Part shown: positions 6,424 to 48,985 of the stretch, in pieces
How positions within the stretch are numbered: the first letter of the stretch is position 1
Layout: each line of letters starts with the position of its first letter
DNA from: a virus
Length of the DNA stretch: 64,000 nucleotides
IMG/VR virus record: IMGVR_UViG_3300017971_000201
Span: 62,001 to 126,000 of that record
Strand: one strand, 5' to 3'
Notes under the pieces: model-generated
Told to the model about the DNA's origin: nothing
The model's database searches: none
What the model saw: only the letters and a program-made list of their open reading frames with translations
Translations under genes and position numbers: made by a program

Positions 6424-6887
6424 AGCGGTGTGCGCTCCGTATCGTTGTCGATGTTGGTGAACAAGGGAGCGCTGTTCGCGTTGTTGCGGTACTCATAGCG
6501 GTTGCCCATTGTCCTGACGACTCGCCCGGAGGCAGCCGCGTTCGCTCGGGCGAGAGCCGCCTGCACGGTGATCGAGCCATCCACGCCGTCGGTCAGAACG
6601 ACGAACAGGGCCGCCACAAACACCTCGGACGTCCGGTTGTACGAGCCGGAGACGATCGTGTGTCCGGCGTCGTCGTACACGGTATAGACGACCGTCACGA
6701 AGTCCTCGGCCGGCATGGCTTCCGTGTCGACCGTGTAGAGGCCCGTGGCACGATGGACGAGATCCACGGTGGTCAGGTGCCCACCAGACGCTCCGTAGAT
6801 GTCCGCCTGTGGGTACTTCGTCGTGACCCCATCCGGGAGCTGCAACGACAACGGAAGCGTGTCGCCTTGCCTGATCAGGGTGCTCAT
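6420..6887 (-). CDS. Structural-operon protein, unknown (beta-rich)
   Basis: 155 residues with a strong ribosome binding site (AGGAGG) upstream of ATG. The N-terminal half reads as a beta-sandwich (alternating hydrophobics, ending VVYTVYDDAGHTIVSGSY) like the head-attachment domains of some tail fibre or upper-baseplate proteins. The C-terminal third is more helical and Ala-rich. Its place between a large tail protein and the fibres suggests a tail tip component. No family was recognised. Confidence 0.6.
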   Translation of the reverse strand: MSTLIRQGDTLPLSLQLPDGVTTKYPQADIYGASGGHLTTVDLVHRATGLYTVDTEAMPAEDFVTVVYTVYDDAGHTIVSGSYNRTSEVFVAALFVVLTDGVDGSITVQAALARANAAASGRVVRTMGNRYEYRNNANSAPLFTNIDNDTERTPL

Positions 6888-6943
6888 TCAGCTCCTCCTG
6901 TGACCGAACTTACCACCATCTGCCGACGGAACGCCCCATCTTC

Positions 6944-8347
6944 CTAGACGCCGGAGATCCGCGAGACGATCCGCATGTTCATGTTGGGATAGGTGCCCGT
7001 TAGGTCCGCCCATGCGTCCCAGAAGAACTGGTAGCTGTTGCCGGCCGGGGTCGTGGCAAGCTGCTCGTTGCCATCGTCGCCGTCCCCTTGTGTCATCGGA
7101 AGCCACTCGTCGCCATCGACCGAGTACTCGCCGAAGATGTCTACCGGTCGCGAGCTAGCATCCCGGACGTCGTAGTCGATCTCGACCCGGCCATCCCACG
7201 GCTGAGCGACGCCAGTGATGGACGTCGTCGGTTGGAGGTTCGTGAACGTCCGCAGCGCCCCGAACCGCTCGTCCGGCGGCATCACCCGGTGGGCAAAGGT
7301 AGCCCGGACGTCGATCTCCGACACGCCATCCCACGTAGCCAGCTGAGTGGAGCTGCTACTGTGGACCAGGATGTTCTGGACCTCGTTGACGCGGCGCCGG
7401 TCATCCTGGAAGAGCGTGAAGCCGCCGTCCGAGATGCTCTGGATCGCCGAGGGGAGCAGACCGGTGGTCACGTCTGTGAAGGTGAAGACCGGGAAGGCTG
7501 CCGAATTGGTCTTGACCAGCTTCGAGCCGAGCGCGGCCGAGTAGAGGATACACAGCTCGTCGATCTTGTTGACGAACAGCAACGCCGGCGGTGCGTCCGG
7601 CACGATCGTGAGCGGCCCCAGGCTGGGGATCCCGGTAGCTGGGAGCTTGTTCCAGGCCGGCGGGGTAACAGGAGCCGTTGGCTGCCACGCGGCGTCGAGC
7701 TGGTAGAGGGACAGCGCTGACCCTGGCTTCAGGAAGTAGAGGCCGTTGTTCCAGAACGCGAACGAGCCGACGGTCGCATCTTGGCCGTCGAGGTTACCGT
7801 CGTCGCCGTCGTCGAAGGCGCCGCCCATCGTGTTGGTGATCGGGTTGTAGTAGATGACCCCGCTCGCCGTGGCGTACCAGATGACCTGCCGCCAAGCGAT
7901 CGAGGTGCAGCCTTCGGAGACAGTCGGCTGGACCGGAGCGCCGATCGGCACCGGAGCGTTCCATGTCGCGCCATCGACCGTCCGTTTCACGAGAAGACCG
8001 TCCACGCTGGCGGAGTTCTGGCGCCACACGCTCATCACGAGGTAGTCCTGAACGACCTCTAGGCTGATCGGAACGACGGTCCCGGACACAGGTGGGAGAG
8101 CGGCCGATGGGATGTCGGACCACGTCCCGCTCTGGTAGACCGCGACACGTGCCTCGCCAGATGTGTGGATGTAGAGCAGGTAGGGATCGCCCTGGTAGAC
8201 AGCGATGTTGTTCCTGGTTCGGTTCGGGTACGCTGTCGACGTGACGGCTCCCGAGATCGCGGCACCGACGTCGGTCACGACGTTGTTGATCGTGTCGACC
8301 GTGACGACCTTGCCGGTGTCCCGCCTGAACGCTAGCGCCTTGGCCAT
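6944..8347 (-). CDS. Large tail-tip protein, possible beta-propeller
   Basis: 467 residues. The start is the ATG preceded by AAGGAG at 7 nt; the longer open frame upstream has no binding site. The body shows many repeats of beta strands with Trp, Gly and Asp turns, reminiscent of propeller-like exo-domains, and a C-terminal part (VEIDYDVRDASSRPVDIFGEYSVDG region) like a beta-sandwich. Sits downstream of the gpI-like baseplate gene and upstream of the fibres, so a fibre-attachment or receptor-facing tail protein is likely. Exact family unknown. Confidence 0.6.
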   Translation of the reverse strand: MAKALAFRRDTGKVVTVDTINNVVTDVGAAISGAVTSTAYPNRTRNNIAVYQGDPYLLYIHTSGEARVAVYQSGTWSDIPSAALPPVSGTVVPISLEVVQDYLVMSVWRQNSASVDGLLVKRTVDGATWNAPVPIGAPVQPTVSEGCTSIAWRQVIWYATASGVIYYNPITNTMGGAFDDGDDGNLDGQDATVGSFAFWNNGLYFLKPGSALSLYQLDAAWQPTAPVTPPAWNKLPATGIPSLGPLTIVPDAPPALLFVNKIDELCILYSAALGSKLVKTNSAAFPVFTFTDVTTGLLPSAIQSISDGGFTLFQDDRRRVNEVQNILVHSSSSTQLATWDGVSEIDVRATFAHRVMPPDERFGALRTFTNLQPTTSITGVAQPWDGRVEIDYDVRDASSRPVDIFGEYSVDGDEWLPMTQGDGDDGNEQLATTPAGNSYQFFWDAWADLTGTYPNMNMRIVSRISGV

Positions 8348-8348
8348 G

Positions 8349-8534
8349 CTAGCTCTCCTTTTCCGAGAGAGCCCCAAGAAGGTCAATCGCACTCGGCTCG
8401 TAGAGCATCGCGTGCCTGACCCTCTGGTACTCTTCCTCGCTGAGACCGACGACGTTCCTCGCGAGCCACTCCGGCGACACGAACTGCCTCATCTTCTCGG
8501 CCCACAGCAGTCTCAGTTCCAGTGTCCTGCTCAT
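8349..8534 (-). CDS. Small protein coupled to gpI-like gene, unknown
   Basis: 61 residues starting at an ATG that overlaps the stop of the gpI-like gene (ATGA). Mostly helical and charged, with Trp and Leu positions (LELRLLWAEKMRQF) and acidic C-terminus. The longer frame reading through the gpI-like gene is a shadow. Small helical proteins after gpI are common as fibre-assembly helpers in contractile phages, but there is no motif proof here. Confidence 0.55.
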   Translation of the reverse strand: MSRTLELRLLWAEKMRQFVSPEWLARNVVGLSEEEYQRVRHAMLYEPSAIDLLGALSEKES

Positions 8535-9460
8535 ACCGTGTCCGCCACCACGGTCCCGATCCACGTCTGACTCGCTGCGGTCAACAGCGAAACGATCGGG
8601 CCGTCCATCCACATGCCGGCGGCGTAGTTGCCGGCATCGATGTCCTGCACCCACGTCTGGCTCGAGCCGCGCAGTCCATCGAAGACGATCCTGTCGATCT
8701 CCACGTAGATCGGCTTGAACCGCAGCAGCCGTTCGGCCAGGCGCGAGGCTACATCCGCGTCGAAGTCCTGTGACGGGTTGGCCGTCGGGTAGAAGATCAG
8801 CCGCAGGAAGTGGGACCGCTTCTCGTCCTTGATGCCCAGGTACTTGGGCCACAGCGCAAAGCGGTCGTTGTACTCCGCGTCGAGGGGAACCGAGTCGGTG
8901 ACCTCGCTGTTGAAGTATGGGACGAACACGGTCGGATCGACCGGAGTCAGCGCGGCGCTGGGATCAGCGCTCTCGGCCCAGAGGGGAATGATCTCGACCA
9001 GGAGATCCTCGAAGGCGGCGAGGATCGTGTAGCCCAGATCCGTTCCCTTGTGCAGGAACAGCTGGGCCGCGTTGAGAACCTCCGAGCGCTGAAGCCGCTC
9101 GTTCTTCGCGGGATCGAGCGTGATGCCCACGTTGTAGGCCAGCATCGGGAGCTGGTCGATCGGGCAGGTGACCGCGTCCCACAGGCTCGGGAAGATCACC
9201 CACTTGGCCAGCAGCTCGTTCAGGAGCGGCTTGACGGCCTCGAGAATGCCACGGAGCGGCTCGGGAACATCGCTGCCGAGACCGTCCTCGTCCCGCATGT
9301 CATCGGGGAGGATCCGCCAGGTGACCTCCTCGGCCCAGTCGCCGCGCCCGAAACCGACGTTGAACGGGTACGGGCCGCCGCCTGGGACGCTGAACAGCGC
9401 GCCGCCATGCGGGTGCCCGAAGGGGTTGTGCCCGAAGCCGATTCTCGACGGCTTGCCCAT
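8531..9460 (-). CDS. Baseplate protein, P2 gpI-like
   Basis: 309 residues. The central part, with helical segments around LNELLAKWVIFPSLWDAVTC and LPMLAYNVGI, then a Leu-rich run of about 60 residues ending LVEIIPLWAES, matches the layout of the P2 gpI/tail protein I family, which sits at the baseplate periphery and carries the fibres. It follows the gp6/J-like gene after one intervening gene and precedes the fibre region, as expected. ATG start right after the preceding TAA (TAAATG). Family assignment is by pattern, not by search. Confidence 0.65.
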   Translation of the reverse strand: MGKPSRIGFGHNPFGHPHGGALFSVPGGGPYPFNVGFGRGDWAEEVTWRILPDDMRDEDGLGSDVPEPLRGILEAVKPLLNELLAKWVIFPSLWDAVTCPIDQLPMLAYNVGITLDPAKNERLQRSEVLNAAQLFLHKGTDLGYTILAAFEDLLVEIIPLWAESADPSAALTPVDPTVFVPYFNSEVTDSVPLDAEYNDRFALWPKYLGIKDEKRSHFLRLIFYPTANPSQDFDADVASRLAERLLRFKPIYVEIDRIVFDGLRGSSQTWVQDIDAGNYAAGMWMDGPIVSLLTAASQTWIGTVVADTV

Positions 9461-10444
9461 TTAGACGTTGATCCTCCTGTGAGCTACAAAGACCTCGCCC
9501 ACCCCGGTCGGGGTCACGAGCGTGACGAAGCCGGTCCCGGTGTCGAGCGTGTAGTCGTCGGGATCGACCAGGATGGCGCCACCACGGAACAGGTCCACGT
9601 CGTCCAGCACCGGGGCGGTCACGAGCATGTCGAGCAGTGCCGTGGCCGGGGCCGGCTTGATCACGAGCGGAGTGAGGTGCGAGTGGCCCAGCACGAGCGA
9701 GATCGGGTCACGGGTCTCACGCAGGATAACGAAGCGCTCACTCCCGTGGACCGTCGCGATGACGAGGTTCACGATCCCGGTCCCCAGGTTGACCGAGTAG
9801 TCGTCGGGCGCGGCGATGAGCTGCCCGTTCCGGTAGACGTCCACCCGGACCAGATCCGGGGCGGTAATGCCGGCGTCGAGCGCAGAGACGCCGGCCGAGG
9901 ACGGCTGGATGACGAGCGCAGGCTCGTGCTGGTGAAGCGGAAGCAGCGACTCGGGGAACAGGCCGCCGCCGAACAGCTCACCCTCCTGGCCGTCCTTGAG
10001 GCTGAGGCCGTTCTGGAAGTAGAGCTTGTCCCCCACCCGGGCGCAGAACAGCCGCAGATCCGGGAGCCGCGTCCCCTCGAGATAGATCCGGTTGCTGCGG
10101 TAGAGCGTCAGCTCCGTCCTCGTGCTAAGCGCGCGCGGAAGGATGAAGAACAGCACCTCCCCGTCTTGCAGCTCCGCCGATGCTCCGCCGGCGATGTAAG
10201 CCTCGAACGTGGTAGAGAACCCGGTGACCTCGATGTCGTGGGTCCAGTAAACCAGCCCGTTCGGCGGCGCTCCGGTGGTGTCCCACCCGACCGTGCCGGC
10301 GGAGAGGAACTGGAGCTGGCTGTTCTCGGCATTGCTGTAGCCGATGGCGTCCACGGCCAGCGACCCGTCACGGGACGTTTCGTAGTAGGGCTCCTCGAAC
10401 TCCGAGGGGACCGGTATCGAAAGACGCGGGGTGAGATCGGCCAT
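9461..10444 (-). CDS. Baseplate/fibre-network protein with duplicated beta domain
   Basis: 327 residues. The C-terminal two thirds contain two copies of one module: an H-x-H site (HQH; HSH), then a V-Y/F-R-x-G segment, then DDY-x-x-x-x-G-T-G followed by a hydrophobic strand. The copies are about 100 residues apart, so the gene probably arose by internal duplication. HxH motifs suggest metal-pinned trimers. It lies between the gp6/J-like and gpI-like genes, a position often used by baseplate adaptor proteins. Function is inferred from place. Confidence 0.55.
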   Translation of the reverse strand: MADLTPRLSIPVPSEFEEPYYETSRDGSLAVDAIGYSNAENSQLQFLSAGTVGWDTTGAPPNGLVYWTHDIEVTGFSTTFEAYIAGGASAELQDGEVLFFILPRALSTRTELTLYRSNRIYLEGTRLPDLRLFCARVGDKLYFQNGLSLKDGQEGELFGGGLFPESLLPLHQHEPALVIQPSSAGVSALDAGITAPDLVRVDVYRNGQLIAAPDDYSVNLGTGIVNLVIATVHGSERFVILRETRDPISLVLGHSHLTPLVIKPAPATALLDMLVTAPVLDDVDLFRGGAILVDPDDYTLDTGTGFVTLVTPTGVGEVFVAHRRINV

Positions 10445-10454
10445 CTCGTCTCTC

Positions 10455-12071
10455 CTACTGCACCGTGACCGCCGGGATCTCGCCCATGGTGATCACCTCG
10501 AAGTCCTCGATCTCCAGGTCGCCGAAGCTGTTGACCCGGCCCAGCGACTCGGTATCGCCGGTGATGGCGGCGTGGCTCCAGTCCACCCCGGTGATGCTGT
10601 TGATCAGCTGGTAGATGTCGCTGATGCGGATCGACGTCCCGTAGGCCCTGCCCAGAAGCTCGCTCTCGAGCTGGGACCGAACCTCGGCCGCCACAGTCTC
10701 CTTCTGCTCCTGGCTGGCATAGTCCTCGGTCGTCGTGATCGACACCGTCAGGTCGACCGAGAGGAGGTTGACGGAGCCGTCGGTGACGTGGACCTTGGCT
10801 GTGCTGACTGCCTTCTCGTCGAGGAACGCTTCCAGCGCCTCGGCCAGGCCGACCGGAGCAGTCACGTATCGTCCGACGTCGTCCTCGGCGAGGATCTGGG
10901 CCAGGATGATCTCCGTCTGGCCGTTCGAGGCCAAGACCCGGTCCCAGTAGTTGTAGAGCCGGTCGATGGTGTCCTGCGGGACGCCGGCGTTCGTCATCTC
11001 CTCGAGAATCGTGAGGGCCTCGGCGTCCTGCTCCACGCCCCTGGGCGTGGTCGCGCGCCCAATCGCCACACTGCCCCAGGTCGGGTCGGAGAAGGAGTTG
11101 ATCCAGCCGTCCAGGTCGTCCTGGGTGACCGCGCGCTGGGCTGACTGGAAGACCAGGCGCGCGTTCACCTTGATCGAGTTGATCGTCTCCCGGTCGGACC
11201 CCGGCGTGGAGGGCTCGTCGTGTGTCAGGGTCGCCTCGACCAGCGTCGTGCCGGCCACGATGGGTTCCATGAAGGCTGTCACCGTGTTTGCCGGAACGGA
11301 ACCGCTGGTACCGCTGGTCACGAAGAACCGCCAGCGCAGCTCGGCGTCCTTCAGGGGGATGTTCCCAGCGATTCCGTCGCCGAGCACCGCGCGCGGCGGC
11401 GAGAACCCGTACTGAAACTCGAACTGGTTGGTCTGCTCGAACTCCAGGAAGCGGCTTTCGTCCCACTCGACGTTGGACACCCAGAGCTGTGGACTATCCT
11501 GGGCGATCGAGAACCCGTCTGGGACGTTGGTGATCGTGAAGGTCTGTGCCGGCTCGCCGGTGGACACGAAGACCGACTCGAGCGACTCTCCCTGCCGAGC
11601 GTCGAACTCCTTGGGACCCGACTCTCCGACGTCGAAGATGGTCTCGTCTACGACCTCGAAGATCAGACCGCTCGGCCCCTGGAGCTTGCGGCCCTTCTCG
11701 ATCGTGAACCGGCTCGGGGCCGGGGCGGCTAACGTCATCGTGATACGCACGGCTGGAGGAACAGCCGCCGCCGGCTTGTAGCCCAGCTGGCGGGCGATCG
11801 TGACAGCCGCAGCTCGCAGGCGCACATCGCGCAGGTTGGTGTCGTCCGCCTGCCGATCCCCGTACCAGTTCATTGTGGAGAGGCCGAAGGCGAACATCTC
11901 GATCAGGACGATGCCCTGCTCGGAGGCCACGATGTTGCTCGCCACCTCGTCCCCGAAGCGGAGCTGGAGGAACGAGATGATCTCGTCGCGGTTGGTCTCG
12001 AAGTCCTTGCCGAAGAGGCCGGACCGAACCAAGTCCCGCGCGGTCGCGCTCAGCGAAATGCCGTTGCTCAT
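10455..12071 (-). CDS. Baseplate wedge protein, gp6/gpJ-like
   Basis: 538 residues, starting at an ATG overlapping the stop of the gp25-like gene (ATGA). The N-terminus (FLQLRFGDEVASNIVASEQG, then a helix naming a fold seen in gpJ/gp6 proteins) and the C-terminal region with alternating strands around LLSVDLTVSI and a late YGTSIRISDIYQLI segment fit the baseplate J-like family (P2 gpJ, T4 gp6). These proteins form the iris-like ring of the inner baseplate. The order gp25 then gp6/J is conserved across contractile phages and supports the call. Confidence 0.75.
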   Translation of the reverse strand: MSNGISLSATARDLVRSGLFGKDFETNRDEIISFLQLRFGDEVASNIVASEQGIVLIEMFAFGLSTMNWYGDRQADDTNLRDVRLRAAAVTIARQLGYKPAAAVPPAVRITMTLAAPAPSRFTIEKGRKLQGPSGLIFEVVDETIFDVGESGPKEFDARQGESLESVFVSTGEPAQTFTITNVPDGFSIAQDSPQLWVSNVEWDESRFLEFEQTNQFEFQYGFSPPRAVLGDGIAGNIPLKDAELRWRFFVTSGTSGSVPANTVTAFMEPIVAGTTLVEATLTHDEPSTPGSDRETINSIKVNARLVFQSAQRAVTQDDLDGWINSFSDPTWGSVAIGRATTPRGVEQDAEALTILEEMTNAGVPQDTIDRLYNYWDRVLASNGQTEIILAQILAEDDVGRYVTAPVGLAEALEAFLDEKAVSTAKVHVTDGSVNLLSVDLTVSITTTEDYASQEQKETVAAEVRSQLESELLGRAYGTSIRISDIYQLINSITGVDWSHAAITGDTESLGRVNSFGDLEIEDFEVITMGEIPAVTVQ

Positions 12072-21075: not shown

Positions 21076-22935
21076 CTACCGCGTCTTGAGCTTGCGCCGC
21101 TTCCCCTTCTTCGGCCGGATGCCCAGACCGCCGAGCACCTTCTTCTTGAGGTGCTCGGGCGCTCCAGCCAGCTGAGCCTCGAGCCACGCCTTGCCCTTTG
21201 GGTTCTCGAGCGGCTTCGCCAGGATCCGCGTGGCGAACCGGTGCATCCTCGGCTCGATCTCGGTGCGGAACTCGACGCTGCTCGTGTCGTACGTCCCCTT
21301 GTTCTCGATCTCGTAGTAGCGGTGACCGAACTTCTGCTTGTAGACCTGGGCGGCCTTCGCCACCGCCTTGTGCGAGGCGACCACATCTGCGTCAGGAACC
21401 GTCCGTCCCCGTGCTTGGTTGCGGGCGCGGGCAACGTCGAGAGGGGTGACCACCATCACCATGGAGCAGTCGTAGCCGAGGTCTTCGAGCGCCCTCTTGC
21501 CTTTCAGGATGTAGGTGGGGTTCTTGGCGGTGCCATCGACGACCATGCCGAGCCGCCCGCGCGCGAATTGCTCGCGCTGATTCATCATCGTGTACCACGA
21601 GCGGTCGTGCAGCTCCTTCCCGATCGATGGGAACTTGGGGTTGTCAGTCGGTAACTGGAAGGCCGTCTTGAGATCGATGCCCTTCTGCCGTACGCGCCAG
21701 GCGAAGATCTCGTCCATGCTCAGCGCCTTGAGCCCGAAGGCTGCGCCGAGCTGGCTGCCGAGCTTCCCGAACATCGTGCCGGCGGTGAAGCTCTTGCCCG
21801 AGTTGTGGTGGACGGCTCCCTCGGCCACGTAGTTCGCCCAGCGCGGCACGGTCAGGTCGTAGTAGACCCCCTCACCCGCTGGCTTGATCGTCCGCACTCG
21901 TTTCCACATGCTATGATAACGGCATGACGCCACAGCAGCTTGATGAGATGGAGCGCCTCTACCAAGAGGGCTGGAACTCGGTCCAGCTCGGTCTTCGCTA
22001 CGACCGAACGCCGCCGACGATCCGCTACCACCTACGGAAGCGCGGTGCGACGGTGCGCTCCCGTGGAGAGGCGAACCGGCTCCGCGCCCCGAGCGCGCGC
22101 TGTCAGGTAGACGAAGCGAAACTGCGCGAGCTTCACGGTCGGGGTCTGAGAACGAGGGAGATCGGGTCTGCTCTTGGTGTAAGCGCGGAGACTGTTCGCC
22201 GCCGCCTGCGAGACCTGGGCATCGCTCGCCACCAGCGCGGAGCGCCTGGGGAGCGGAATCGTCACTGGCAGGGGGGCCGCATCGTGGACGACGATGGCTA
22301 CGTGCTCGTCCACCGACCGGATCACCCGTTTGCGACGAAGGCCGGCTACATGCGCGAGCACCGGCTGGTGATGGAGGCGCACCTGGGTCGCTACCTTGAT
22401 CCGTCTGAGGTTGTCCACCACGCAGACAAGAACCCGCAGAACAATGCGCCGTCGAACCTGAAGCTCTACGCGACGAACGCAGAGCATCTTCGGGACGAAC
22501 AGACCGGAGTTCCGAAGAACGTGTCACCGGAAGGTCGCCGCAGGCTGCAAGCCGCTGGTCGCAAGAGTGGCGCAACTCGGAGAGCGAAAGCCAGCCGGAA
22601 GGCGTCAGGAAGCGGTGCTCGTCAGTCACGGTGACGCGCGACCCGTCCTCCAGCTCGATCTCGTGCAGCTCCGCCACACCCTTCACAAACGGCGCGTTGC
22701 ACTCGACCGGCTCGAACCCATCCGGTGTCAGTGCAAGTACGGTGATCGGCCCTCCGCGCTCGGCCAGCGCGTCTACGCGCTCCTCCAGTCCCGTACGCGG
22801 ATCGAGGATCTTCGTGTGCGGCGCGATGCAGCCCATACCGCCGCCGAGGAAGATCACCTTGAGGATGTGCGGATCGAAGACGCCTTCGTGCAGGCTCCGG
22901 GCAGCTGCCGGAACGATCCGCTCGAACAGGCACAC
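21076..22935 (-). CDS. Zeta-toxin-like P-loop kinase, interrupted by an intein in Walker A
   Basis: 619-residue precursor from a GTG at 22935, one base after the upstream stop; splicing would leave 276 residues. N-extein (35 residues) ends K-V-I-F-L-G-G-G-M-G and the C-extein begins S-G-K-S-F-T-A-G, so the intein splits the Walker A motif GGGMG|SGKS. The C-extein contains V-V-D-G-T-A-K-N-P and V-T-P-L-D-V-A-R-A-R-N-Q-A-R-G-R, as in zeta toxin/AAA-type kinases that phosphorylate small molecules. The enzyme is inactive until the intein is removed. Role in a tail operon is unknown. The long upstream in-frame extension to 23112 is a shadow of the preceding gene. Confidence 0.75.
   Translation of the reverse strand: MCLFERIVPAAARSLHEGVFDPHILKVIFLGGGMGCIAPHTKILDPRTGLEERVDALAERGGPITVLALTPDGFEPVECNAPFVKGVAELHEIELEDGSRVTVTDEHRFLTPSGWLSLSELRHSCDQRLAACGDLPVTRSSELRSVRPEDALRSSRRASGSTAHCSAGSCLRGGQPQTDQGSDPGAPPSPAGARACSRPSSQTGDPVGGRARSHRRPRCGPPASDDSAPQALRAGGERCPGLAGGGEQSPRLHQEQTRSPSFSDPDREARAVSLRLPDSARSGRGAGSPLHGSAPSHRASVGGSGSSAAFGRSEDRAGPSSSPLGRGAPSHQAAVASCRYHSMWKRVRTIKPAGEGVYYDLTVPRWANYVAEGAVHHNSGKSFTAGTMFGKLGSQLGAAFGLKALSMDEIFAWRVRQKGIDLKTAFQLPTDNPKFPSIGKELHDRSWYTMMNQREQFARGRLGMVVDGTAKNPTYILKGKRALEDLGYDCSMVMVVTPLDVARARNQARGRTVPDADVVASHKAVAKAAQVYKQKFGHRYYEIENKGTYDTSSVEFRTEIEPRMHRFATRILAKPLENPKGKAWLEAQLAGAPEHLKKKVLGGLGIRPKKGKRRKLKTR
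21912..21917 (+). promoter_or_regulatory. -10 hexamer TATGAT, leaderless-type promoter for the HNH gene
   Basis: TATGAT sits exactly 6 nt before the ATG at 21924, so transcription would start at or next to the start codon. No convincing -35 was found, and no Shine-Dalgarno exists between it and the ATG. This supports independent plus-strand expression of the HNH gene from inside the intein. Confidence 0.5.
21924..22634 (+). CDS. HNH homing endonuclease encoded antisense inside the intein
   Basis: 236 residues, complete on the strand opposite to the intein that contains it. Two helix-turn-helix-like segments at about residues 3-42 and 54-95 (the second: R-E-I-G-S-A-L-G-V-S-A-E-T-V-R-R-R-L) are followed by an HNH domain: M-R-E-H-R-L-V-M-E near residue 140, E-V-V-H-H-A-D-K-N-P near 161 and N-L-K-L-Y near 178. 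This is the usual order of phage HNH homing endonucleases with NUMOD-like DNA-binding units. The tail is basic. Its last about 20 codons are antisense to intein block B. It likely cuts intein-free kinase alleles so that the intein is copied in. Confidence 0.85.
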   Translation: MTPQQLDEMERLYQEGWNSVQLGLRYDRTPPTIRYHLRKRGATVRSRGEANRLRAPSARCQVDEAKLRELHGRGLRTREIGSALGVSAETVRRRLRDLGIARHQRGAPGERNRHWQGGRIVDDDGYVLVHRPDHPFATKAGYMREHRLVMEAHLGRYLDPSEVVHHADKNPQNNAPSNLKLYATNAEHLRDEQTGVPKNVSPEGRRRLQAAGRKSGATRRAKASRKASGSGARQSR

Positions 22936-22936
22936 G

Positions 22937-23470
22937 CTAGTACAGGTTCTTGCCGCGCTGCTTGTCCGCCGCGTCGGCACAGGACTCCGCAGCCTTGGCC
23001 GCCGCACGGAGCGACGAGACCAGAGCCTTGTGCTTGGGCTCCATCTTGGAGAGTCCGGGGTCCTTCCAGCGCTTCTTCTCGGCCCACATCCGCTCGCATG
23101 TCGTGGCCGCATCCTCGAGCGCGTACTGGAGATCGCGCTTGTTGATGTAGCGACGGGGCATCATGCCCATCATCTCGTGGAGAGGGTTGCGGCCGTCGTC
23201 CTGATCCTGTTCCTGCTCGGTCAGGCCGGCCAGCTTGTCGAACTGTCCCATCGTGTCCTCCTGGGCGCCCTTACCCTTCATGCGAACGATGGCAAAGCCC
23301 GCCCTCTTGAGGGCACTTCGGATCGCGAGCACCTTGTCGTACGGCTTGGTGAACTTCTCACCATGCTGCAAAGCCTTCAGGAGAGCGGCGTCCACCTCCT
23401 TGCGCTTGGCGATCTTCTCGCCCGCGTTCTTGGCCTCAACCAGTCCCGCCCTCTCGTCGAAGTGCCCCAC
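22937..23470 (-). CDS. Tail-operon protein, unknown (helical)
   Basis: 177 residues, GTG start with GAGGAG upstream. Charged and helical throughout with many Lys, Glu and Ala; contains E-D-A-A-T-T-C-E-R-M-W-A-E-K-K-R and a C-terminal Ala-rich helix with A-A-D-K-Q-R-G-K-N-L-Y. No membrane segment or signal. It lies between the two tail tube genes, before the zeta-like kinase, in the same operon. May be a tail assembly helper; no motif supports a specific job. Confidence 0.6.
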   Translation of the reverse strand: MGHFDERAGLVEAKNAGEKIAKRKEVDAALLKALQHGEKFTKPYDKVLAIRSALKRAGFAIVRMKGKGAQEDTMGQFDKLAGLTEQEQDQDDGRNPLHEMMGMMPRRYINKRDLQYALEDAATTCERMWAEKKRWKDPGLSKMEPKHKALVSSLRAAAKAAESCADAADKQRGKNLY

Positions 23471-38579: not shown

Positions 38580-41399
38580 CTAGTGCCGGTGCATCCGCCC
38601 GGCCAGTCGCTCTTGCTCGACCAGCGACGTCCCCAGGAACGCCAAGTCCTGGGATGCTGCGTCGCCGGCGAGAAGTTCTGCTTGTTCGCTCTCCTCGAAC
38701 GCTCGCCGCTCGTCCTCGGTGATGTGCTCGCGGCCGGCGCTCATGGACCTGCGCACGCGCTCCATGGGACCGCCGGGCTCCTGCGCCCGGATCTCCGACC
38801 GAGACGCGGCGGCGTCGATCTCCCTGGTGGAGGTCAGCTCGTCGTTGCGAACGTCCTCCATGATCGACTCACGGTTCGGGTGACCGATCGTCCGGTCGCT
38901 CGCGTATGCCAGGAGCTTGGCCCTGGTGCCGGCCGTGACAGCCCGCTCGAGCATGTCGGCCTGCTCCTCGATCCGCGCCCGCGCGTCCCGGACCTCCTCG
39001 TCCTTGCTCTCGAGAGCGGACGTCAGACGCTCCTCCAGGGCCTCGAACCTCTTGGTGACCTCGGACCGGTAGCGCTTCTCACGCGCCTCTGCCTGGGCGA
39101 GCGCGTACTCGGCCTCGGACGCCCTCTCCTCCGCGAGGCGGATCGCGGTCCCGGCCTCCTCGTTCGCGGCGGTCTTCGCCGACATCTGTGCTTCCTCGAT
39201 CGAGGTCAGCGCTGACTCGACTCTTGTCTTCAGCTCCTCGGCGGTGTTGCACGCAGCGATGTCGCCGATCAGGTCGCGGACGCTCTCTCGATCCTCGCGT
39301 CCGCCGATCATCTGCTCCACGTAGAGCTGGAACGCCAGCTGGCGTGTCTTCTCCTCGACGTGCACGACGCGAGACTCCGCGTCCTTGGCCTTCTGCTCCT
39401 GCTCGTCCGCTGCCCGGGACAGCTCCTCGATCTTGGCATCCTTCTCGTCCAAGACCTTCTTCTCGTCGGGCGACGGGGCGTAGGGGTTGACCATCTCGGC
39501 GATCTTCTTGAGCGCCAGCTTCGCGCCGGCCGTCTCGGGATCGCTCGCGAAGTCGCTGCGGACCTCCTCCTCGACCTTCGTGCGCATCTCGGCCAGCGCG
39601 CGGACGAGCTTGGCCGCGAAGTCCTCGCGCAGCTCGTCGATCGCCTTCTTGTAGATCTCCTCCTTTTGGGACTCGACCTCACCGTTGATCCGGTCGTCGG
39701 TGTCCTCGGCCGCAGTCTCCGAGGCCACCCGCATCGCGTGCTGCTCGATCACGCGAACCGCGTCCGGGAAGTGCTGGCGCAGCATCGTCTCGGTGACCTC
39801 CTTCGGGTCCACCACGAGCTTGCCGGTGGGCTTGCCCTCGCCGTCCGTGTCCTCGGAGATCACGGACGGATAGGCGTCGTGGCAGGCCGGATCGGCCACG
39901 AAGTCCCACGTGTTGAGCTTGAAGTCCTCGCCGACCATGTCCCAGCCCCGGGGGCCGGTGGACGTGGAGCCCATGCCCCGGCTGGACATGCCGATGGCCG
40001 CACCCCGCCGCAGGAACGCGGCGAGGTTGCGACCCGCGTCGGCCTCCTCGACGACCTCGAACTTGCCGTTGATCGTCCCGTCGTCCTCGATCCAGAGACC
40101 GCGAACGATGCAGCCGCCCTCCCGGATCCGGCTGTTGTGGTTGACGGTGAAGTCGCCCAGCAGGAACCGGCCGTCGCCGTCCAGCTCGAATCCGGCGTAG
40201 TCGCCAGTTCCGATGGACGTGACGATGAACCCGGTCCTGAGCGCATCCTTTCGCTGCTCGCGCGGCTCGGCCTTCTTGCGCTCCAGACGGGTCGGGATCT
40301 GCTCCACGTCGCCCCAGATGGTGAGCGTGTGGTAGTCGTCGCTGTAGCCCTGCACCTTGCGCGTGGAGAGCACGGCCTGGAGGCCGAGCGACTTGGCGAT
40401 CCGGTGCGCGGCCTGCGCATAGTCGGCGCGCTTCTGGGTGATGTAGAAGCAGTTGTGCTGGAGATGACCGTCGGTGTCGATCAGCCCAGCAAGGAACTGG
40501 AGACGGGTCTCGCGGCTCCCGCGCACAATCGCGGTCGGGATCTCCACGTTGGTACCCACCATGTCGCGCATCGCGCGCAGCAGCCGGTTGTCTTGGCCGC
40601 GACCGGCGGTCAGGTGGATCGTGACGGCCTCGGTCCCGGTGGTCTTGCGCCACTCGTTCGTGGACAGCTCCCACCGTGCGGCGGTGTCCTCGCAGAGCTG
40701 CTTGATCTCGTCATCGATGGTCGTGATCGAGATGTCACCAATCCTGGGCGCACCGGCCTTGTTCTCGCGCAGGGTCTTGCCACCGTCACCGAACCAGACG
40801 CCGAGGAAGTAGGGATCGACCTTCGGTTCGGGCAGCTCGTCCTCGAACCGCTCGACGCCGGTGCTGAACAGCTTGTAGCGGCTCTTGTAGTAGATGCTCT
40901 TGTCGAGATAGTCCTCGACCGGGATGTCCACGATCTCGCCGCTGGACGTGTGAACCAGCGTCAGTACGTGCTTGTCGTTGCAGACCCACGGATCGCCCTT
41001 CGCCGGGTCGATCCGGTAGAGCTGGCCGGTGCCGGAGGTTGTCGCCAGCACCGTGCGCGCCTTGCCGTCCGGCCCCATGAGTCGGTCGCCAGCGACGATC
41101 TGCTCGACCGGGAGCACGCGACCGTCGGCCATGAGGACCGGAGTCCCCAGGCCGAGGCACTTGCCGTCCCCGGGATGGTCGACCGCGCCGATGACGCTCC
41201 CCTGCTCGATCCGGGGCTGGAGTCTTCCGATCTCCCTCTCCATGACCGAGCGGGGGTAGACGCGGTTGTTGGCCGTCGGCTTGTCCACGTGGCCGATCTT
41301 GCCTTCGACCACGAGCTTGCCACCGTCCCTCCCTTCGAGGATCTGCATCCTCATGGGCGGACCGTAGTGGTCGACCAGCACGCGCCTGTTCGTCGTCAT
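38580..41399 (-). CDS. Prohead protease/scaffold fusion containing an intein
   Basis: 939-residue precursor, 597 after removal of a 342-residue intein. The N-extein ends V-D-H-P-G-D-G-K and the C-extein begins S-R-I-R-E-G-G; the C-extein soon shows G-M-S-S-R-G-M-G-S, so the His-Ser pair of herpes-type/U9-like prohead proteases flanks the insertion. After the protease domain a long coiled-coil scaffold segment (about 350 residues, rich in Glu, Ala, Arg) follows, as in protease-scaffold fusions. Splicing is needed to bring the catalytic His and Ser into one domain. Confidence 0.85.
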   Translation of the reverse strand: MTTNRRVLVDHYGPPMRMQILEGRDGGKLVVEGKIGHVDKPTANNRVYPRSVMEREIGRLQPRIEQGSVIGAVDHPGDGKCLGLGTPVLMADGRVLPVEQIVAGDRLMGPDGKARTVLATTSGTGQLYRIDPAKGDPWVCNDKHVLTLVHTSSGEIVDIPVEDYLDKSIYYKSRYKLFSTGVERFEDELPEPKVDPYFLGVWFGDGGKTLRENKAGAPRIGDISITTIDDEIKQLCEDTAARWELSTNEWRKTTGTEAVTIHLTAGRGQDNRLLRAMRDMVGTNVEIPTAIVRGSRETRLQFLAGLIDTDGHLQHNCFYITQKRADYAQAAHRIAKSLGLQAVLSTRKVQGYSDDYHTLTIWGDVEQIPTRLERKKAEPREQRKDALRTGFIVTSIGTGDYAGFELDGDGRFLLGDFTVNHNSRIREGGCIVRGLWIEDDGTINGKFEVVEEADAGRNLAAFLRRGAAIGMSSRGMGSTSTGPRGWDMVGEDFKLNTWDFVADPACHDAYPSVISEDTDGEGKPTGKLVVDPKEVTETMLRQHFPDAVRVIEQHAMRVASETAAEDTDDRINGEVESQKEEIYKKAIDELREDFAAKLVRALAEMRTKVEEEVRSDFASDPETAGAKLALKKIAEMVNPYAPSPDEKKVLDEKDAKIEELSRAADEQEQKAKDAESRVVHVEEKTRQLAFQLYVEQMIGGREDRESVRDLIGDIAACNTAEELKTRVESALTSIEEAQMSAKTAANEEAGTAIRLAEERASEAEYALAQAEAREKRYRSEVTKRFEALEERLTSALESKDEEVRDARARIEEQADMLERAVTAGTRAKLLAYASDRTIGHPNRESIMEDVRNDELTSTREIDAAASRSEIRAQEPGGPMERVRRSMSAGREHITEDERRAFEESEQAELLAGDAASQDLAFLGTSLVEQERLAGRMHRH
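40134..41159 (-). mobile_element. LAGLIDADG intein in the prohead protease (342 residues)
   Basis: Cys-1 is encoded at 41159-41157 and the final His-Asn at 40136-40134, with Ser as the +1 residue. Splicing blocks are seen (N-terminal C-L-G-L-G-T-P-V-L-M; block B C-N-D-K-H-V-L-T; C-terminal F-L-L-G-D-F-T-V-N-H-N). The endonuclease domain shows Y-F-L-G-V-W-F-G-D-G and F-L-A-G-L-I-D-T-D-G-H, so both catalytic Asp are kept. Confidence 0.9.
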
Positions 41400-43623: not shown

Positions 43624-46600
43624 CTACTGACCGTGGAATCTTCGGGTCATCGCGAGCAGCTCCTTCCGGGAGAACTTCCCGGATGGCGGAGCGGACATGC
43701 TGCCGCCGTTGGTTCGGCGCAGCAGGCCACGGACCTCCTCGAAGAACGCGCGCCGCTCGTGCTCGCGCCTGGCGAAGCCTTTGTCGCCCTCCAACAGACG
43801 ATTGAGCTTGTCCGAGATCTCGGAGTGCCGGCGGCTCGACTCCCTGTACTTCCATTCCTCGAGACGTCGCTCGTAGTCGTAGCGCTTCCACTCCTCTGGC
43901 GTCGGTTTCTTCCCCTTGCCGACCGCCGGGGCCTTGGGCTTGGGCGACGGCTTGGGCGCCGGCTTAGGGGTTCCCTCCTCCTCCTCCGGCGGCGCTTTCT
44001 CTGGCGCCTCCTCCGGCGGAGCCTCCTCCGGCTCTTCCTCCCCGCCCGGCGGCGGGGCCTCTGGCGGCCCGCCCTGGCCGCCGCCCATCGCGTAGCTGGG
44101 CAGATCGCCGGCCTGCTCCTCCTCGGAGTCCTTCTTCTGTTGCTTCTCGATCTCCTTGATCTCCTCCTCGGAGAACTTGAGGATGTTCTCCTGGATCCAG
44201 CGGGTGCTCACCCACGGCTGAATCCGGCTCGCGTAGTCAGCTGCCGCGTTCATGGTCTCGTAGGCCGCCAGCTCCCAGATCCCCGAGGGCACGGTCATCT
44301 CGATCGTGAACTCGGGCTTCCAGGGATCGCGCACGCCGCGAGCGGCCAGGTGCGTGCGAATGACCCTCTCCCAGCCGATCTTCAGCTCGCGCTGGAGATT
44401 CAGGGTCACCCGGGCCGCGCGAACGTCGTCGTTCGACAGAATCGACTTCGACGGCGGGGCCTCGTCCTTGCCCAGGTAGGCGCGCGGGACCTTCAGTGTC
44501 GCGTGGAGCATCTGCTTGAAGTACTCGACATCATCGACGGCCTGGTAGTCCGGGCCGGAGAGGACGTCCACCCTGGCCAGCTCGCGGCCCTCGCGAACGG
44601 CGATGAAGAAGTCCTCGTCACGGGCGAGAGGGTTGTAGCGGAGATCCAGCCGGCCGGATCGGGGGTTGACCATCCGCTTCTTCTTGAGGTCCCGCTTCGC
44701 CTTCTGAAGGAATGCGCCGACCTGGTCGGACGGGATGTCGGTCGTGTCGATGTAGTAGGCGTAACGAGCTGGCGCGCGCGTGTTGTGCACCACGCACCCG
44801 TCCGCGACGAAGTTGTGCTCGTCGGCCTCGACACCGATGTCATAGATGTCATCTGTCTCGATTTCCTCGACGCCGCGAATCACCTCTGTCTTCGCCTGGG
44901 GCTTGAAGGAGACGTCCAAGCAATAGGACGTGCTGGTCGGAAGCGGCTTGCTGGAGCCTTTGATCGTTCGACCGCCCGCTCGCGTACGAGACCAAACGAA
45001 GGTGGCGACCAGCCCGAGTTGCATGGCCAGCTCGCGCACATCCTCCAACAGCTGCTTGTTGCACATCTCGAAGCGAGCGCGCTCGTAGCGCGTCTTCCTT
45101 CCCTCCTTGCGGGGCTTGATGTGTGCGTCCGCGTCGGCAAGCCCTCGGATCATGGCCAGCTTGAGCTTGGGATGCGCTCGGAAGATCCACTCCGGCAGAC
45201 GCTTGTGGTGGGCGCCGGGGACGAACCCGTTGAGCGTCATGAACTCAGCGAACTTGCCGGAAACGATCGTGTAGGCGCCTAGCCGGTGGCCGGTATCGCC
45301 GACCAGCTTGACTGGCGCATATTTCTCGAAGAGAGCCTTGTACTGCTCGTTGATGTCCTGGTGCGCCCCAAGCGCGAACCCGGTCTCGTTCTGAGCAACG
45401 TGAGCCTCAGAGTGACCTGGGCGCAGCTTATGAGTGCGGGTGGCGACGAACCCGTCCCCGAGCATGAACCCCCACCACCGCGCGAAATCCGCGTCGGCGG
45501 TTTCCGGGACCGTGATCCCTGTAACAGGAGTGCCGCGCTCACCGCCCCAGTGCTCCTCGATCTCCAGATGCTCTGGGCCGTGACCGTTGGCTTCCAGCAA
45601 CGCTACGGCAGTATCGGTCTTGAGGTCATAGTCGCCGGCGAAGAAGTCGCGTGCCCGGCAGTGATGCACACCGACCTGCTTCGCAATCTTGGGGTAGGGC
45701 ATGGTCCGCTCGACAGCCCCGACGAGTCGCGCCTTGCTGTGGAGCTGCGGCCTTTCGAGGTAGATCTCCTCCCAGTCGTCTTCGTTCTTGGAAGGGGTGA
45801 CGAACCTGTGCACGCCAGGCTCAAGGTTCTGGACCTCCACGTAGTCCAGCCGGCGGATCTGGGGAATACCCTTGCCCCGGCCGACAACCGTCTCGACCAG
45901 AACAGGGTGCGTCCTGTTGGCGAAGATCTCCCTGTGGTCGCTGAAGACGCGGAAGATCTTGTCCTGGCCGTTGTGCTTCTTGTAGACGACCTTCGTCTTC
46001 TTCAGCCGGTGATCGTTGCCCGGATCGGTGTAGGAGTAGACCTCATCTCCCTCCTGTAGATCCTTGATTGCCTTACGGCCGTCTGGCGTCCAGATCTGAG
46101 AGTCTCCGCGCAAGCAGAGCTTGTAGATCAAGACCGAGTCCTCGAGCATCACCAGCCGCTTCCAGATCCAGCGAGCGCCCTCAGCGACCGAGACGCCGTA
46201 AGGCGACCGCCGCCGCGTCGCGCGCAGGCGGAAGTGGGCAACCTGCCAGTCCTCGAACAGGGCGAGACTCCTGGGGATCTCGACGTTGCCGGCGAGCATC
46301 CGCCGCAGCTCTTGGCTGTTCGCGGTGAACTGGCCGGTGACGTCCTGCACGAAGCCGATCAGACCGCCGTCCAGACGCTCGACCCGGCGCATCGTGGGAA
46401 CCGGGAGCGTATTGGTCCCGACGATCCCGTTCTCGGTAATGAGCAGCTCGAGGTAGTCGTTGCCCATCATCCCGAGGCCGTAAGCCTGTGGCCAGATCTC
46501 GTCCTCGACCCGCAGGATCCGGTGCATCAGGTCATTGCCCAGGCCCTTGAGAGCGTCGTCCTCCGACATGACCCAGATGCAGCGGCCGTCCTTGACCGAA

Positions 46601-46866
46601 GGCTGGGTCGCGTCGTTGGCAAAGTAGTGGAAGGCGCTGTTGATGTCCGGGTACTCCTCCATCGCCTCGTAGTCGGCAAACCGATCCATGAGCGACTGGG
46701 AGACGGTGAGCAGACCGCCGATGTCCTCGCGCCCCCAGACCGTGAACATGCTCGGCACGTGGTGACGCATCGCCGCGACAGACGGAGAGTCGGCCTTGGC
46801 CCGCTCCTCCTGTGGAGCGCCGAATACGTTTCGGAGCGCCTTGACCGCCCTATCACGGAGGGCCAT
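43624..46866 (-). CDS. Portal protein (T4 gp20-like) containing an intein
   Basis: 1080-residue precursor, 635 after removal of a 445-residue intein. N-extein motifs Y-E-A-M-E-E-Y-P-D-I and M-L-E-D-S-V-L-I-Y-K-L, C-extein T-R-A-P-A-R-Y-A-Y-Y-I-D match the gp20-like portal core (family form Y-R-L-T-R-A-P-E-R-x-x-F-Y-I-D). The intein is inserted between L and T in this very conserved strand. The C-terminal quarter is a Pro/Glu-rich linker and a basic tail. Overlaps the Hint gene by 14 nt, so expression is coupled. Confidence 0.9.
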   Translation of the reverse strand: MALRDRAVKALRNVFGAPQEERAKADSPSVAAMRHHVPSMFTVWGREDIGGLLTVSQSLMDRFADYEAMEEYPDINSAFHYFANDATQPSVKDGRCIWVMSEDDALKGLGNDLMHRILRVEDEIWPQAYGLGMMGNDYLELLITENGIVGTNTLPVPTMRRVERLDGGLIGFVQDVTGQFTANSQELRRMLAGNVEIPRSLALFEDWQVAHFRLRATRRRSPYGVSVAEGARWIWKRLVMLEDSVLIYKLCLRGDSQIWTPDGRKAIKDLQEGDEVYSYTDPGNDHRLKKTKVVYKKHNGQDKIFRVFSDHREIFANRTHPVLVETVVGRGKGIPQIRRLDYVEVQNLEPGVHRFVTPSKNEDDWEEIYLERPQLHSKARLVGAVERTMPYPKIAKQVGVHHCRARDFFAGDYDLKTDTAVALLEANGHGPEHLEIEEHWGGERGTPVTGITVPETADADFARWWGFMLGDGFVATRTHKLRPGHSEAHVAQNETGFALGAHQDINEQYKALFEKYAPVKLVGDTGHRLGAYTIVSGKFAEFMTLNGFVPGAHHKRLPEWIFRAHPKLKLAMIRGLADADAHIKPRKEGRKTRYERARFEMCNKQLLEDVRELAMQLGLVATFVWSRTRAGGRTIKGSSKPLPTSTSYCLDVSFKPQAKTEVIRGVEEIETDDIYDIGVEADEHNFVADGCVVHNTRAPARYAYYIDTTDIPSDQVGAFLQKAKRDLKKKRMVNPRSGRLDLRYNPLARDEDFFIAVREGRELARVDVLSGPDYQAVDDVEYFKQMLHATLKVPRAYLGKDEAPPSKSILSNDDVRAARVTLNLQRELKIGWERVIRTHLAARGVRDPWKPEFTIEMTVPSGIWELAAYETMNAAADYASRIQPWVSTRWIQENILKFSEEEIKEIEKQQKKDSEEEQAGDLPSYAMGGGQGGPPEAPPPGGEEEPEEAPPEEAPEKAPPEEEEGTPKPAPKPSPKPKAPAVGKGKKPTPEEWKRYDYERRLEEWKYRESSRRHSEISDKLNRLLEGDKGFARREHERRAFFEEVRGLLRRTNGGSMSAPPSGKFSRKELLAMTRRFHGQ
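44782..46116 (-). mobile_element. LAGLIDADG intein in the portal (445 residues)
   Basis: Cys-1 at 46116-46114 (C-L-R-G-D-S-Q-I-W-T-P-D), final V-V-H-N at 44784-44782, Thr as +1 residue. Block B reads N-R-T-H-P-V-L-V. LAGLIDADG signatures are G-F-M-L-G-D-G-F-V and M-I-R-G-L-A-D-A-D-A-H. Blocks A, B, F and G all look intact, so it should splice. Confidence 0.9.
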
Positions 46867-47587
46867 CTAGTTCTCCAGTCTCGTCGCCGACGTCCAGGAA
46901 GATCTCGGTCGCCGAAACGCTCGAGCAGTCTTGCGGCAGGACGTCATATACATCTTCCTCTTCGATCCATGGCTCGCAACCGGCAACCTTGTGATTGCCA
47001 GGCATGATCTGTCGCTGGAGATCGAGAAGTCGATGCAGTTTGCTCCGGTTCCCCTTCCGTGGGGTACCGTCGATGTAGAGGTTGTCCGGGTGGCAGTTGT
47101 CAGGGTTGCCGTCCTTATGCTTCACCCGAAGCCCAGGAACGAGGGCATCGCCGGAGGCCCATTCATACACCATTCTGGCGACGCTCCGCCATCTTTTCCG
47201 GTCGCTCGCGCAAGCCGCGTGCTTCCAGTGATCGGTCACCTGCCTGAAGGTCGGGTAGCCGCCCTGCTTGATACGACCGAGGTAGAGCGGAACCAGGCTC
47301 GTGCACGGCTTGAGATCGGCCGCCCGAACGGTCTCGACTCTCCTCGGCTCCCAGTTGGTGAACACCAGGAAGCGCTGGTCGGCGCTGACCCGCAAGCTGC
47401 GGCCGTTGTCGAGAACGACGCGGTATGTCTGTGCGCGGGTGGGCGTGTGCGGAATGTAGACCCGGCCAGCGGCGATCTTCGCACCGTTCCAGGAGAAGAC
47501 GTAGACGGGCTCGTCGGCGTTAGCGATGCGGACGGCGGTCTGGGGACCGCTCATGGTGTGGATGATCGTGTCGCCGGCGATACTCAC
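46853..47587 (-). CDS. Free-standing Hint domain with internal HNH (degenerate)
   Basis: 244 residues from a GTG that overlaps the preceding stop (GTGA). The first 80 residues follow the Hint fold (A-G-D-T-I-I-H-T, then a block-B position reading R-V-S-A-D-Q-R-F-L-V), but the usual Cys-1, block-B Thr-x-x-His and final His-Asn are absent, so splicing is unlikely. Residues about 150-185 hold an HNH-like K-H-K-D-G-N-P-D-N-C-H-P-D-N-L-Y-I. Its stop overlaps the portal start by 14 nt. It could be a homing-type endonuclease on a Hint scaffold or a non-splicing adapter. Confidence 0.65.
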   Translation of the reverse strand: MSIAGDTIIHTMSGPQTAVRIANADEPVYVFSWNGAKIAAGRVYIPHTPTRAQTYRVVLDNGRSLRVSADQRFLVFTNWEPRRVETVRAADLKPCTSLVPLYLGRIKQGGYPTFRQVTDHWKHAACASDRKRWRSVARMVYEWASGDALVPGLRVKHKDGNPDNCHPDNLYIDGTPRKGNRSKLHRLLDLQRQIMPGNHKVAGCEPWIEEEDVYDVLPQDCSSVSATEIFLDVGDETGELDGPP

Positions 47588-48069
47588 TGCGCCTCCTCGT
47601 CTGCCGAGACGACAACTCCCTCGCAAACGAGGTTATGCGCATCGGTGGCGACGTGAAAGACTCGCGCTCTGCCAGCTGGAATGGGGTCGCCCGCAACCAT
47701 CACGTGACCGGTCGAGAAGGCTGTGAGCATGAACTGGTCGGAAACGCCAGTACCGGCGGAGGGGCTGACGATCTTGTCACCTTCCTTCAGGTCACGGGCC
47801 TCGGCGTAGCCGACCGTCGTGAGCACCTTGTACTCCGGCGTGCAGCGGATCTTGCGGAGGTTGGAGAGCAGCACCTCGACGACCTCGACCTCACCGGTCA
47901 GGCGGGGGTGCTGAGCCGCGACCTTGACGATCCGCCTCTTCTTCGTGTCGTAGGCGAGGATCTGCGGCTGCTCTCCCGTTTGCGCGAGCCTCTCGATCGG
48001 GGTCCGCGAGATGATCGAACCGTCGGCCGTGTAGATGAGAACGCCTTCAGCCAGACCCCGCTGATTCAC
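47584..48069 (-). CDS. Free-standing Hint domain protein (no endonuclease, degenerate)
   Basis: 161 residues, GTG start overlapping the preceding TAG (TAGTG). Hint features: T-A-D-G-S-I-I-S-R-T-P-I-E-R-L near the N-terminus, block B C-T-P-E-Y-K-V-L-T (His replaced by Tyr), and block F V-F-H-V-A-T-D-A-H-N-L-V-C-E-G-V-V-V-S (terminal His-Asn replaced by Val-Ser). The N-terminal nucleophile is Ala, not Cys or Ser. So the fold is kept but the splicing residues are lost. It is tandem with a second Hint gene and upstream of the portal. Confidence 0.65.
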   Translation of the reverse strand: MNQRGLAEGVLIYTADGSIISRTPIERLAQTGEQPQILAYDTKKRRIVKVAAQHPRLTGEVEVVEVLLSNLRKIRCTPEYKVLTTVGYAEARDLKEGDKIVSPSAGTGVSDQFMLTAFSTGHVMVAGDPIPAGRARVFHVATDAHNLVCEGVVVSADEEAQ

Positions 48070-48623
48070 TACTTTCCCTTCGCGTGCCTGTACGCTCGCG
48101 CCTCGTCCTTCGTCGGCAGCTTGAAGGACGGCAGCGCAGCCAACTTGACAACGTCGGGGATCGACATCTTGACGATGACATTCGGCTCGCCGCTGTAGCC
48201 TCTGGTACTCTCCACGCTCGCCGACTTGATGCCTGCCGCCTTGAGCTTCTTCTCCAGCAGCCGCTTGTAGCCGCCAGCCTTGATGGTCGTCGCCGACTGC
48301 GTGGTCACACGTGTGTGAACGAGACTCTTGCCGGCCTTCTCCGACCAGGTCTCCCCAGTGTGCCGGCCAAGCAGACCCCTCTTCTCCAGGCGCGCCAGCG
48401 TCTTTTCGACCTGCTTCTTGCCGGCCTCCGCCTTCACGGTCAGCCCTTGCCGGCGCATGGTCTTGATGATCGCAGCCACGGTCTTGCCATAGAACCCGCG
48501 CGGTCCATAGCCGGACGCGCCTTTCGTCGCCCGCGCAGCGTCAAGCACCTGTCGCTCGAACTCGGTGAGGTCTGGCGGATCGTCGTACCCGCCGCCTTCC
48601 ATGATCCGGTCGTAGAGACTCAC
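48069..48623 (-). CDS. Unknown basic protein upstream of Hint genes
   Basis: 184 residues, GTG start overlapping the previous stop (GTGA) with AGGAGG at 9 nt. The segment A-A-I-I-K-T-M-R-R-Q-G-L-T-V-K-A-E-A-G-K-K-Q-V-E-K-T-L-A-R-L-E-K-R-G-L resembles a winged-helix DNA-binding unit. C-terminal part is basic with two beta-strand pairs. May bind DNA or RNA. Part of the portal operon. Confidence 0.6.
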   Translation of the reverse strand: MSLYDRIMEGGGYDDPPDLTEFERQVLDAARATKGASGYGPRGFYGKTVAAIIKTMRRQGLTVKAEAGKKQVEKTLARLEKRGLLGRHTGETWSEKAGKSLVHTRVTTQSATTIKAGGYKRLLEKKLKAAGIKSASVESTRGYSGEPNVIVKMSIPDVVKLAALPSFKLPTKDEARAYRHAKGK

Positions 48624-48985
48624 GTTGACTGTCCTCCTATCGCCGCCTTGAGACGATCGCGAAAGATGTTCAGCGATCGGTAGAGGTAAGGCCACAGCCG
48701 ATTCAACCTGGCTTCGAGATCGGACTCCGAAACATCCGGGTCATCGCTGACCCGCTTCCTGAGATCCTTCACGAAGTCGTCGGCCACGCGCTGGGCGAGC
48801 AGCTTATCTCCCGCGAGCACCGGTGAGAGATCGAAGTCGATCGCAGACTCGCGGATCATCTCGTCGACCAGCTCGGCCTCTGTCGTCTCCGGCGCCGGCG
48901 GACCCATCGCCTTTCGGCGAATGTAGACCAGACGCTTTCTGATCTCCGGCCGCCGGGCCATCGTCTCGTCGAGCGGCTCCCCCAT
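48620..48985 (-). CDS. Unknown helical protein
   Basis: 121 residues, ATG overlapping the previous stop (TGATG). Mostly helical and charged, with an Arg-rich beginning (A-R-R-P-E-I-R-K-R-L-V-Y-I-R-R-K) and a helix pair D-D-F-V-K-D-L-R-K-R-V near the middle. Its position ahead of the portal is that of a small terminase or head-maturation gene, but no terminase motif is visible. Confidence 0.55.
   Translation of the reverse strand: MGEPLDETMARRPEIRKRLVYIRRKAMGPPAPETTEAELVDEMIRESAIDFDLSPVLAGDKLLAQRVADDFVKDLRKRVSDDPDVSESDLEARLNRLWPYLYRSLNIFRDRLKAAIGGQST

Follow-up and report, generated by a model that had tools for sequence, protein, structure and literature searches.

Inteins are usually seen as selfish parasites that persist through homing or because they are difficult to delete. 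In yeast, HO and WHO are standalone, intein-like genes that have no exteins, do not splice and have lost the C-terminal intein motif, while their nuclease is active (PMC7282813). Here, we describe two genes, A and B, in a virus genome. The window, i.e. the whole stretch of DNA analysed, comprises 64,000 nucleotides (nt) and spans positions 62,001 to 126,000 of the record IMGVR_UViG_3300017971_000201, which has a full length of 159,664 base pairs. Gene A (47584-48069, 161 amino acids, aa) and gene B (46853-47587, 244 aa) lie in tandem on the minus strand, directly upstream of a T4-like portal gene. Both are probably emancipated former inteins of this portal gene that no longer splice but are maintained, a reading we hold with good confidence from sequence comparison. 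New here is their apparent origin as counterparts of two neighbouring portal inteins. The intein-derived proteins would have outlived splicing and homing, yet appear to be under selection beside their former host gene.

Fold and splicing residues of A and B

An original prediction, made from the letters of the window, had placed two tandem genes with Hint folds at this position. The sequence and AlphaFold models both bear this out. Structure prediction, which had been suggested as a check, gave a Hint fold for A (predicted local distance difference test score, pLDDT, 88.0; predicted template modelling score, pTM, 0.84) as well as for B (pLDDT 83.9, pTM 0.81). In a comparison with solved inteins, both models match the Mtu RecA intein, with a Z of 22.6 and 1.7 Å over 141 residues for A, and a Z of 19.6 and 1.8 Å over 135 residues for B. 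Both models show the horseshoe shape of the Hint superfamily in this comparison.

Inteins are in-frame insertions with N- and C-exteins, and carry Cys or Ser at position 1, the His of the block-B TxxH motif and a terminal His-Asn (HN). Neither gene has exteins: the first residue of each protein corresponds to intein position 1 or lies at most 4 residues off, and the last residue falls about 3-11 residues from the intein end. Alignment and a residue table also confirm the predicted absence of the nucleophile, the block-B His and the final His-Asn from both genes. In A, Gly stands at the Cys1 position and TPEY replaces TPxH, while the terminal HN is missing. In B, the three elements Cys1, TxxH and HN are replaced by Ser, SADQ and DV, respectively. 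Among freestanding B proteins, Cys1 (0/18, with Ser in 3), the block-B His (0/18) and the terminal His-Asn (0/18) are all missing. Freestanding A was found in the window and in L004 (L-numbers denote viral contigs or records of related phages, obtained from scans with A, B and the portal). Neither copy has Cys1 or HN, and the active-site losses differ, the block-B His being gone from the window copy and present only in L004, which has lost the block-F His. In contrast, the splicing residues are complete in all A-type copies with exteins, i.e. in 17/17 portal-embedded copies and in the copy of L023. The Hint core of freestanding B is conserved, with Trp33, Arg138 and Asn198-His199 each present in 16/16.

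Three further possibilities were considered and dropped. Ser2 of B aligns with Cys1 and could in principle act as a nucleophile, but it is not conserved (most relatives have Ala, Met or Gly) and is not preceded by an N-extein. A and B do not form a split intein pair, as each is a complete Hint domain. The residues SA in the tail of A are not common to L004 and were discarded as a vestige of a C-extein.

The HNH motif that had been noted in B is present at residues 152-170 (GLRVKHKDGNPDNCHPDNL; 47078-47134, minus strand), albeit in a degenerate form: HH has become KH and the second N of NN has become C. The HNH_3 match (E 1e-4, 22.3 bits) falls below the Pfam cut-off of 24.8 bits; HNH_3 matches occur in 12 of 15 B members. 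The HH pair of intact HNH inteins is never preserved in B: the freestanding proteins have K, R, S, E or C at the first position and H, Y or F at the second, where about half of the members have lost the His. All of them also deviate at NN. The ~150 aa that come after HNH in true HNH inteins are missing as well. A PHROGs search with B returned chiefly HNH matches, while Pfam scans of A and B detected HNH_3 and Intein_splicing only, and neither the LAGLIDADG nuclease nor the zinc finger of HO/WHO. Judged by these residues, A and B would be unable to splice or to cut DNA.

Embedded, nested and freestanding counterparts

All 18 distinct relatives with the freestanding type have an intact gene B directly upstream of the portal gene; the L002/L003 contig, 100% identical in A and B, was not treated as independent. 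L004/L005 carry both genes next to an intein-free portal that is 92% identical to that of the window, and L006 keeps B, also with an intein-free portal. A different arrangement is found in L007, L018-L020, L022, L025-L030, L033, L034, L061 and L062. Here, B is an upstream gene and an A-type mini-intein with Cys1, TxxH, HN and a +1 Ser is inserted in the portal after residue 76. Of the relatives sampled, 17 have an A-type mini-intein with all splicing residues in the portal gene. A is homologous to the intein copies over its full length, at 32-47% identity (34-47% for most). The equivalent site of the window portal is empty (DIN/SA, 46638-46639, minus strand).

B has embedded counterparts too. 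The B-type protein of L072/L082, and of the fragment L071, occurs as a portal intein inserted after residue 67, nine portal residues upstream of the A-type site. The B profile matches the L072 intein with an E of 2e-58. The embedded form has Cys1 (a position not covered in L071), the block-B His, HN and a +1 Ser. L072/L082 have no freestanding copy of B, and the gene upstream of their portal is unrelated. Site 67 is empty in the window (YE/AM, 46665-46666, minus strand). The HNH motif of the embedded L072 copy is already disabled although this copy is splicing-competent by sequence, so loss of the nuclease probably preceded the exit from the portal gene. A and B may be described as freestanding, non-splicing descendants of the site-76 mini-intein and the HNH-type site-67 intein, respectively.

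A nested state was observed in L023, where an intact A-type mini-intein interrupts gene B in frame (3839-4993) and the portal site for the mini-intein is empty. This is expected if the B protein is needed. Strong A-type copies occur exactly once per record in the 12/12 records searched (nine in the portal, one nested in gene B of L023, and two as separate genes, in the window and L004), and strong B-type copies once per record in 14/14 ingroup records (embedded in L072/L082, freestanding elsewhere, never both); these counts cover the sequence present in the records, many of which are fragments. The more distant portals of L075, L077 and L078-L081 have neither type; in L074, the A-type site is occupied by an A-like intein. 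Upstream of this outgroup portal, a gene (L074, 32-1120) harbours a separate HNH intein whose HH motif is intact.

Two outcomes that would speak against a retained pair of genes, namely loss of both in close relatives without a pattern and clear frameshifts, did not occur. The loss of A is patterned, since records without an A gene have the A-type element in the portal or inside B, and no frameshift was found in freestanding A or B among the relatives examined.

The nearest kin of B are HNH inteins at other portal sites (B profile against site-291 inteins, E 2e-32). In a tree rooted on HNH inteins, all B-type sequences are separated from them with 100/99 support, and freestanding B forms one clade (95/90) that is sister to the embedded L071/L072 form. 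The rooted tree and the embedded orthologues indicate that A and B share with HO/WHO the state of standalone genes without exteins and of intein ancestry. Portal, A and B trees are concordant on the major clades, which points to vertical inheritance and not to recent homing.

A scan of viral contigs with the B profile gave no match outside this phage clade, and a scan of genome contigs with the portal gave no relatives. Protein searches of annotated phages returned weak matches only (a RecD-like helicase intein, a dCTP deaminase intein and a portal intein at another site), so that A and B were not traced to any cultured relative. In a viral structure library (BFVD), B matched mostly inteins within host genes. 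The best match was A0A127AYL6, a Hint-domain protein of 539 aa from Bacillus phage SP-15; this phage has a distantly related portal, too.

Selection, gene layout and competing explanations

The ratio of nonsynonymous to synonymous substitution rates (dN/dS) of B between the window and L004 is 0.18 (confidence interval, CI, 0.11-0.28), and mostly 0.08-0.23 for other B pairs. For A, the same comparison gives 0.47 (CI 0.31-0.72; Fisher p 2e-4). The corresponding values are 0.07-0.13 for the portal exteins and 0.40 for the 208-aa gene upstream of A. Pairs of embedded A inteins give 0.04-0.17. At the sequence level, B clearly behaves as a maintained gene under strong purifying selection. A appears to be constrained more loosely than B, and may be in slow decay. 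The original prediction had proposed either a novel use without splicing or homing elements in decay; the former is favoured for B, which is intact in 18/18 relatives with a dN/dS of ~0.1-0.2, and more weakly for A at 0.47.

The maintenance of two emancipated inteins would have come about as follows. Two portal inteins may have exited the host gene and become separate, overlapping genes directly upstream. The exteins, nucleophile and terminal His-Asn would then have been lost, as would the block-B His in all but one freestanding copy. A and B are presumably retained for some benefit that the folded Hint protein brings to the phage. The benefit would not lie in portal splicing, since L004 keeps both genes with an intein-free portal. 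Made from the same message just ahead of the portal protein, A and B could attach to the nascent portal, or to its partner in assembly, close to the former insertion sites and aid folding or assembly. The excised inteins could have acted in this way before. Such a role is our best guess, albeit a rather doubtful one. Somewhat more credible, though still tentative, is the idea that the inteins were kept for their leftover protein: the excised portal inteins would already have been useful to the phage, and then persisted as normal genes with neither splicing nor cutting activity. The stages of this transition would still be visible as both embedded, B out with A in, A nested in B, and both out. 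As embedded and freestanding orthologues exist in related phages, an own function of the excised inteins is directly testable by comparing the two states.

Several observations weigh against emancipation followed by maintenance. All dN/dS values are pairwise Nei-Gojobori estimates, some with saturated dS, and the B pair of window and L026 gives 0.55. Freestanding A is known from just two genomes, which are closely related. Its dN/dS exceeds the values of the embedded inteins several-fold, as would also be expected in early decay, but the embedded pairs are more diverged and the contrast can only be taken as indicative. In the portal tree, L071/L072 stand next to the L061/L022 group (95/94). 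This position agrees poorly with B having been emancipated once, and it is not firmly rejected by the B data (p-AU 0.088). Two or three exits of B are possible, as is one exit with recombination of the 5' end of the portal gene. The case for an assembly role is drawn from position and overlap.

The same data bear on whether A and B are dead inteins, retained as junk on the way to loss. The absence of splicing and nuclease residues, the faster change of A when freestanding (0.47 against 0.04-0.17) and the loss of different active-site residues from its two copies agree with decay. However, phage genomes shed junk quickly, whereas B is intact in every relative across deep divergence at a dN/dS of ~0.1-0.2, which largely refutes decay for B. 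A is significantly below neutrality and, like B, free of frameshifts. Overall, decay appears unlikely. Another explanation is suggested by the layout of the locus, in which the 208-aa gene (48069-48695), A, B and the portal gene follow each other on the minus strand. Starts and stops overlap, as had been predicted for A, B and the portal gene: the start GTG of A has one base in common with the stop of the 208-aa gene (TAGTG), the start GTG of B overlaps the stop of A by 4 nt (GTGA), and B shares its final 14 nt with the portal gene, from the portal ATG on. A ribosome-binding-like GGAG of the portal gene lies within the 3' end of B, 6 nt ahead of the ATG (46873-46876, minus strand). It is conceivable that the reading frames alone matter and are kept open for translational coupling and the portal ribosome-binding site. 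We consider this improbable, as dN well below dS and the conserved Hint-core residues indicate selection on the protein, and the L072/L082 portal does without either upstream gene.

Two further explanations assign a role in intein biology. B could be a homing endonuclease that acts in trans and mobilises the mini-intein next to it (collaborative homing), given that it adjoins the gene carrying this intein and that most members match HNH_3. The degenerate motif and the missing ~150 aa make this highly improbable; moreover, the concordance of A and portal trees by major clade is as in vertical descent, and the window retains B without a mini-intein in its portal. Alternatively, A and B could act on inteins in trans, for example by regulating or inhibiting splicing or invasion of the intein-rich portal gene. 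Portal genes of the clade contain up to six inteins and B retains the intein shape. However, L004 and L006 keep B, and L004 also A, with an intein-free portal, and we know of no mechanism for such an action, which we regard as improbable too. Emancipated and maintained portal inteins remain the preferred reading.

Other inteins and comparison with known systems

The portal gene (T4-like gp20; 43624-46866, minus strand; Portal_T4, E 5e-44) encodes 1080 aa including one intein. This is a LAGLIDADG intein at residues 251-695 (44782-46116, minus strand; C...HN/T) with intact terminal residues, separate from A and B, and missing from the intein-free portal of L004. The intein at this site 250 is 445 aa long in the window and just 140 and 238 aa in L029 and L030, which looks like endonuclease loss in progress. 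In L030, the portal gene (4302-11494) carries six inteins and forms a single open frame, which exceeds 2,397 codons and continues past the contig end. Elsewhere on the minus strand of the window, a P-loop protein contains an intein (21076-23112; GGGMG/C...HHN/SGKS). Antisense to the middle of this intein is a gene for a 236-aa HNH endonuclease with an intact HH motif (21924-22634, plus strand; VVHHADKNPQNNAPSNL). A prohead protease-like gene also has an intein (38580-41399, minus strand; CLGLGTPV...TVNHN/S, 342 aa).

No equivalent of A and B was found in the open-access literature on nested, relic, freestanding or splicing-inactive phage inteins, subscription journals being outside this coverage. 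In 'ShiLan', a hidden, out-of-frame HNH insertion was described in a phage methylase (PMC11855218). As an intein-like or HNH element of an unorthodox kind within a phage gene, it resembles A and B, but it is inserted, has a homing HNH and lacks a splicing domain (PMC11855218). A and B have the Hint fold and are neither insertions nor working nucleases. HNH phage inteins of the same clade (portal sites 291, 302, 330 and 365) share the Hint and HNH architecture of B. Unlike B, which has none of these features and is shorter by ~150 aa, they have exteins, Cys1, the block-B His, HN and an intact HNH. The A-type portal mini-intein differs from A in having all splicing residues, whereas A is devoid of exteins, nucleophile and terminal Asn. 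Bacterial intein-like (BIL) and PT-HINT domains also represent Hint folds outside classical inteins (BIL2, Z 17-18). They are processing domains fused to further parts of a protein, whereas A and B are separate proteins with no flanking domain, nucleophile or other processing residues.

A and B were not assigned to inteins or homing endonucleases because they lack the defining features of either. They are better classed as domesticated intein-derived genes, a known kind with a precedent in HO/WHO. The yeast genes are the closest precedent, being standalone without exteins or splicing, and WHO adjoins its host gene (PMC7282813). They differ in having an active LAGLIDADG nuclease and a zinc finger, and WHO is a homing element (PMC7282813). 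The nuclease of B is of the HNH type and disabled. For A and B, embedded splicing orthologues are on record at the very host gene. In phages, the locus would parallel the origin of yeast HO, but without the nuclease.
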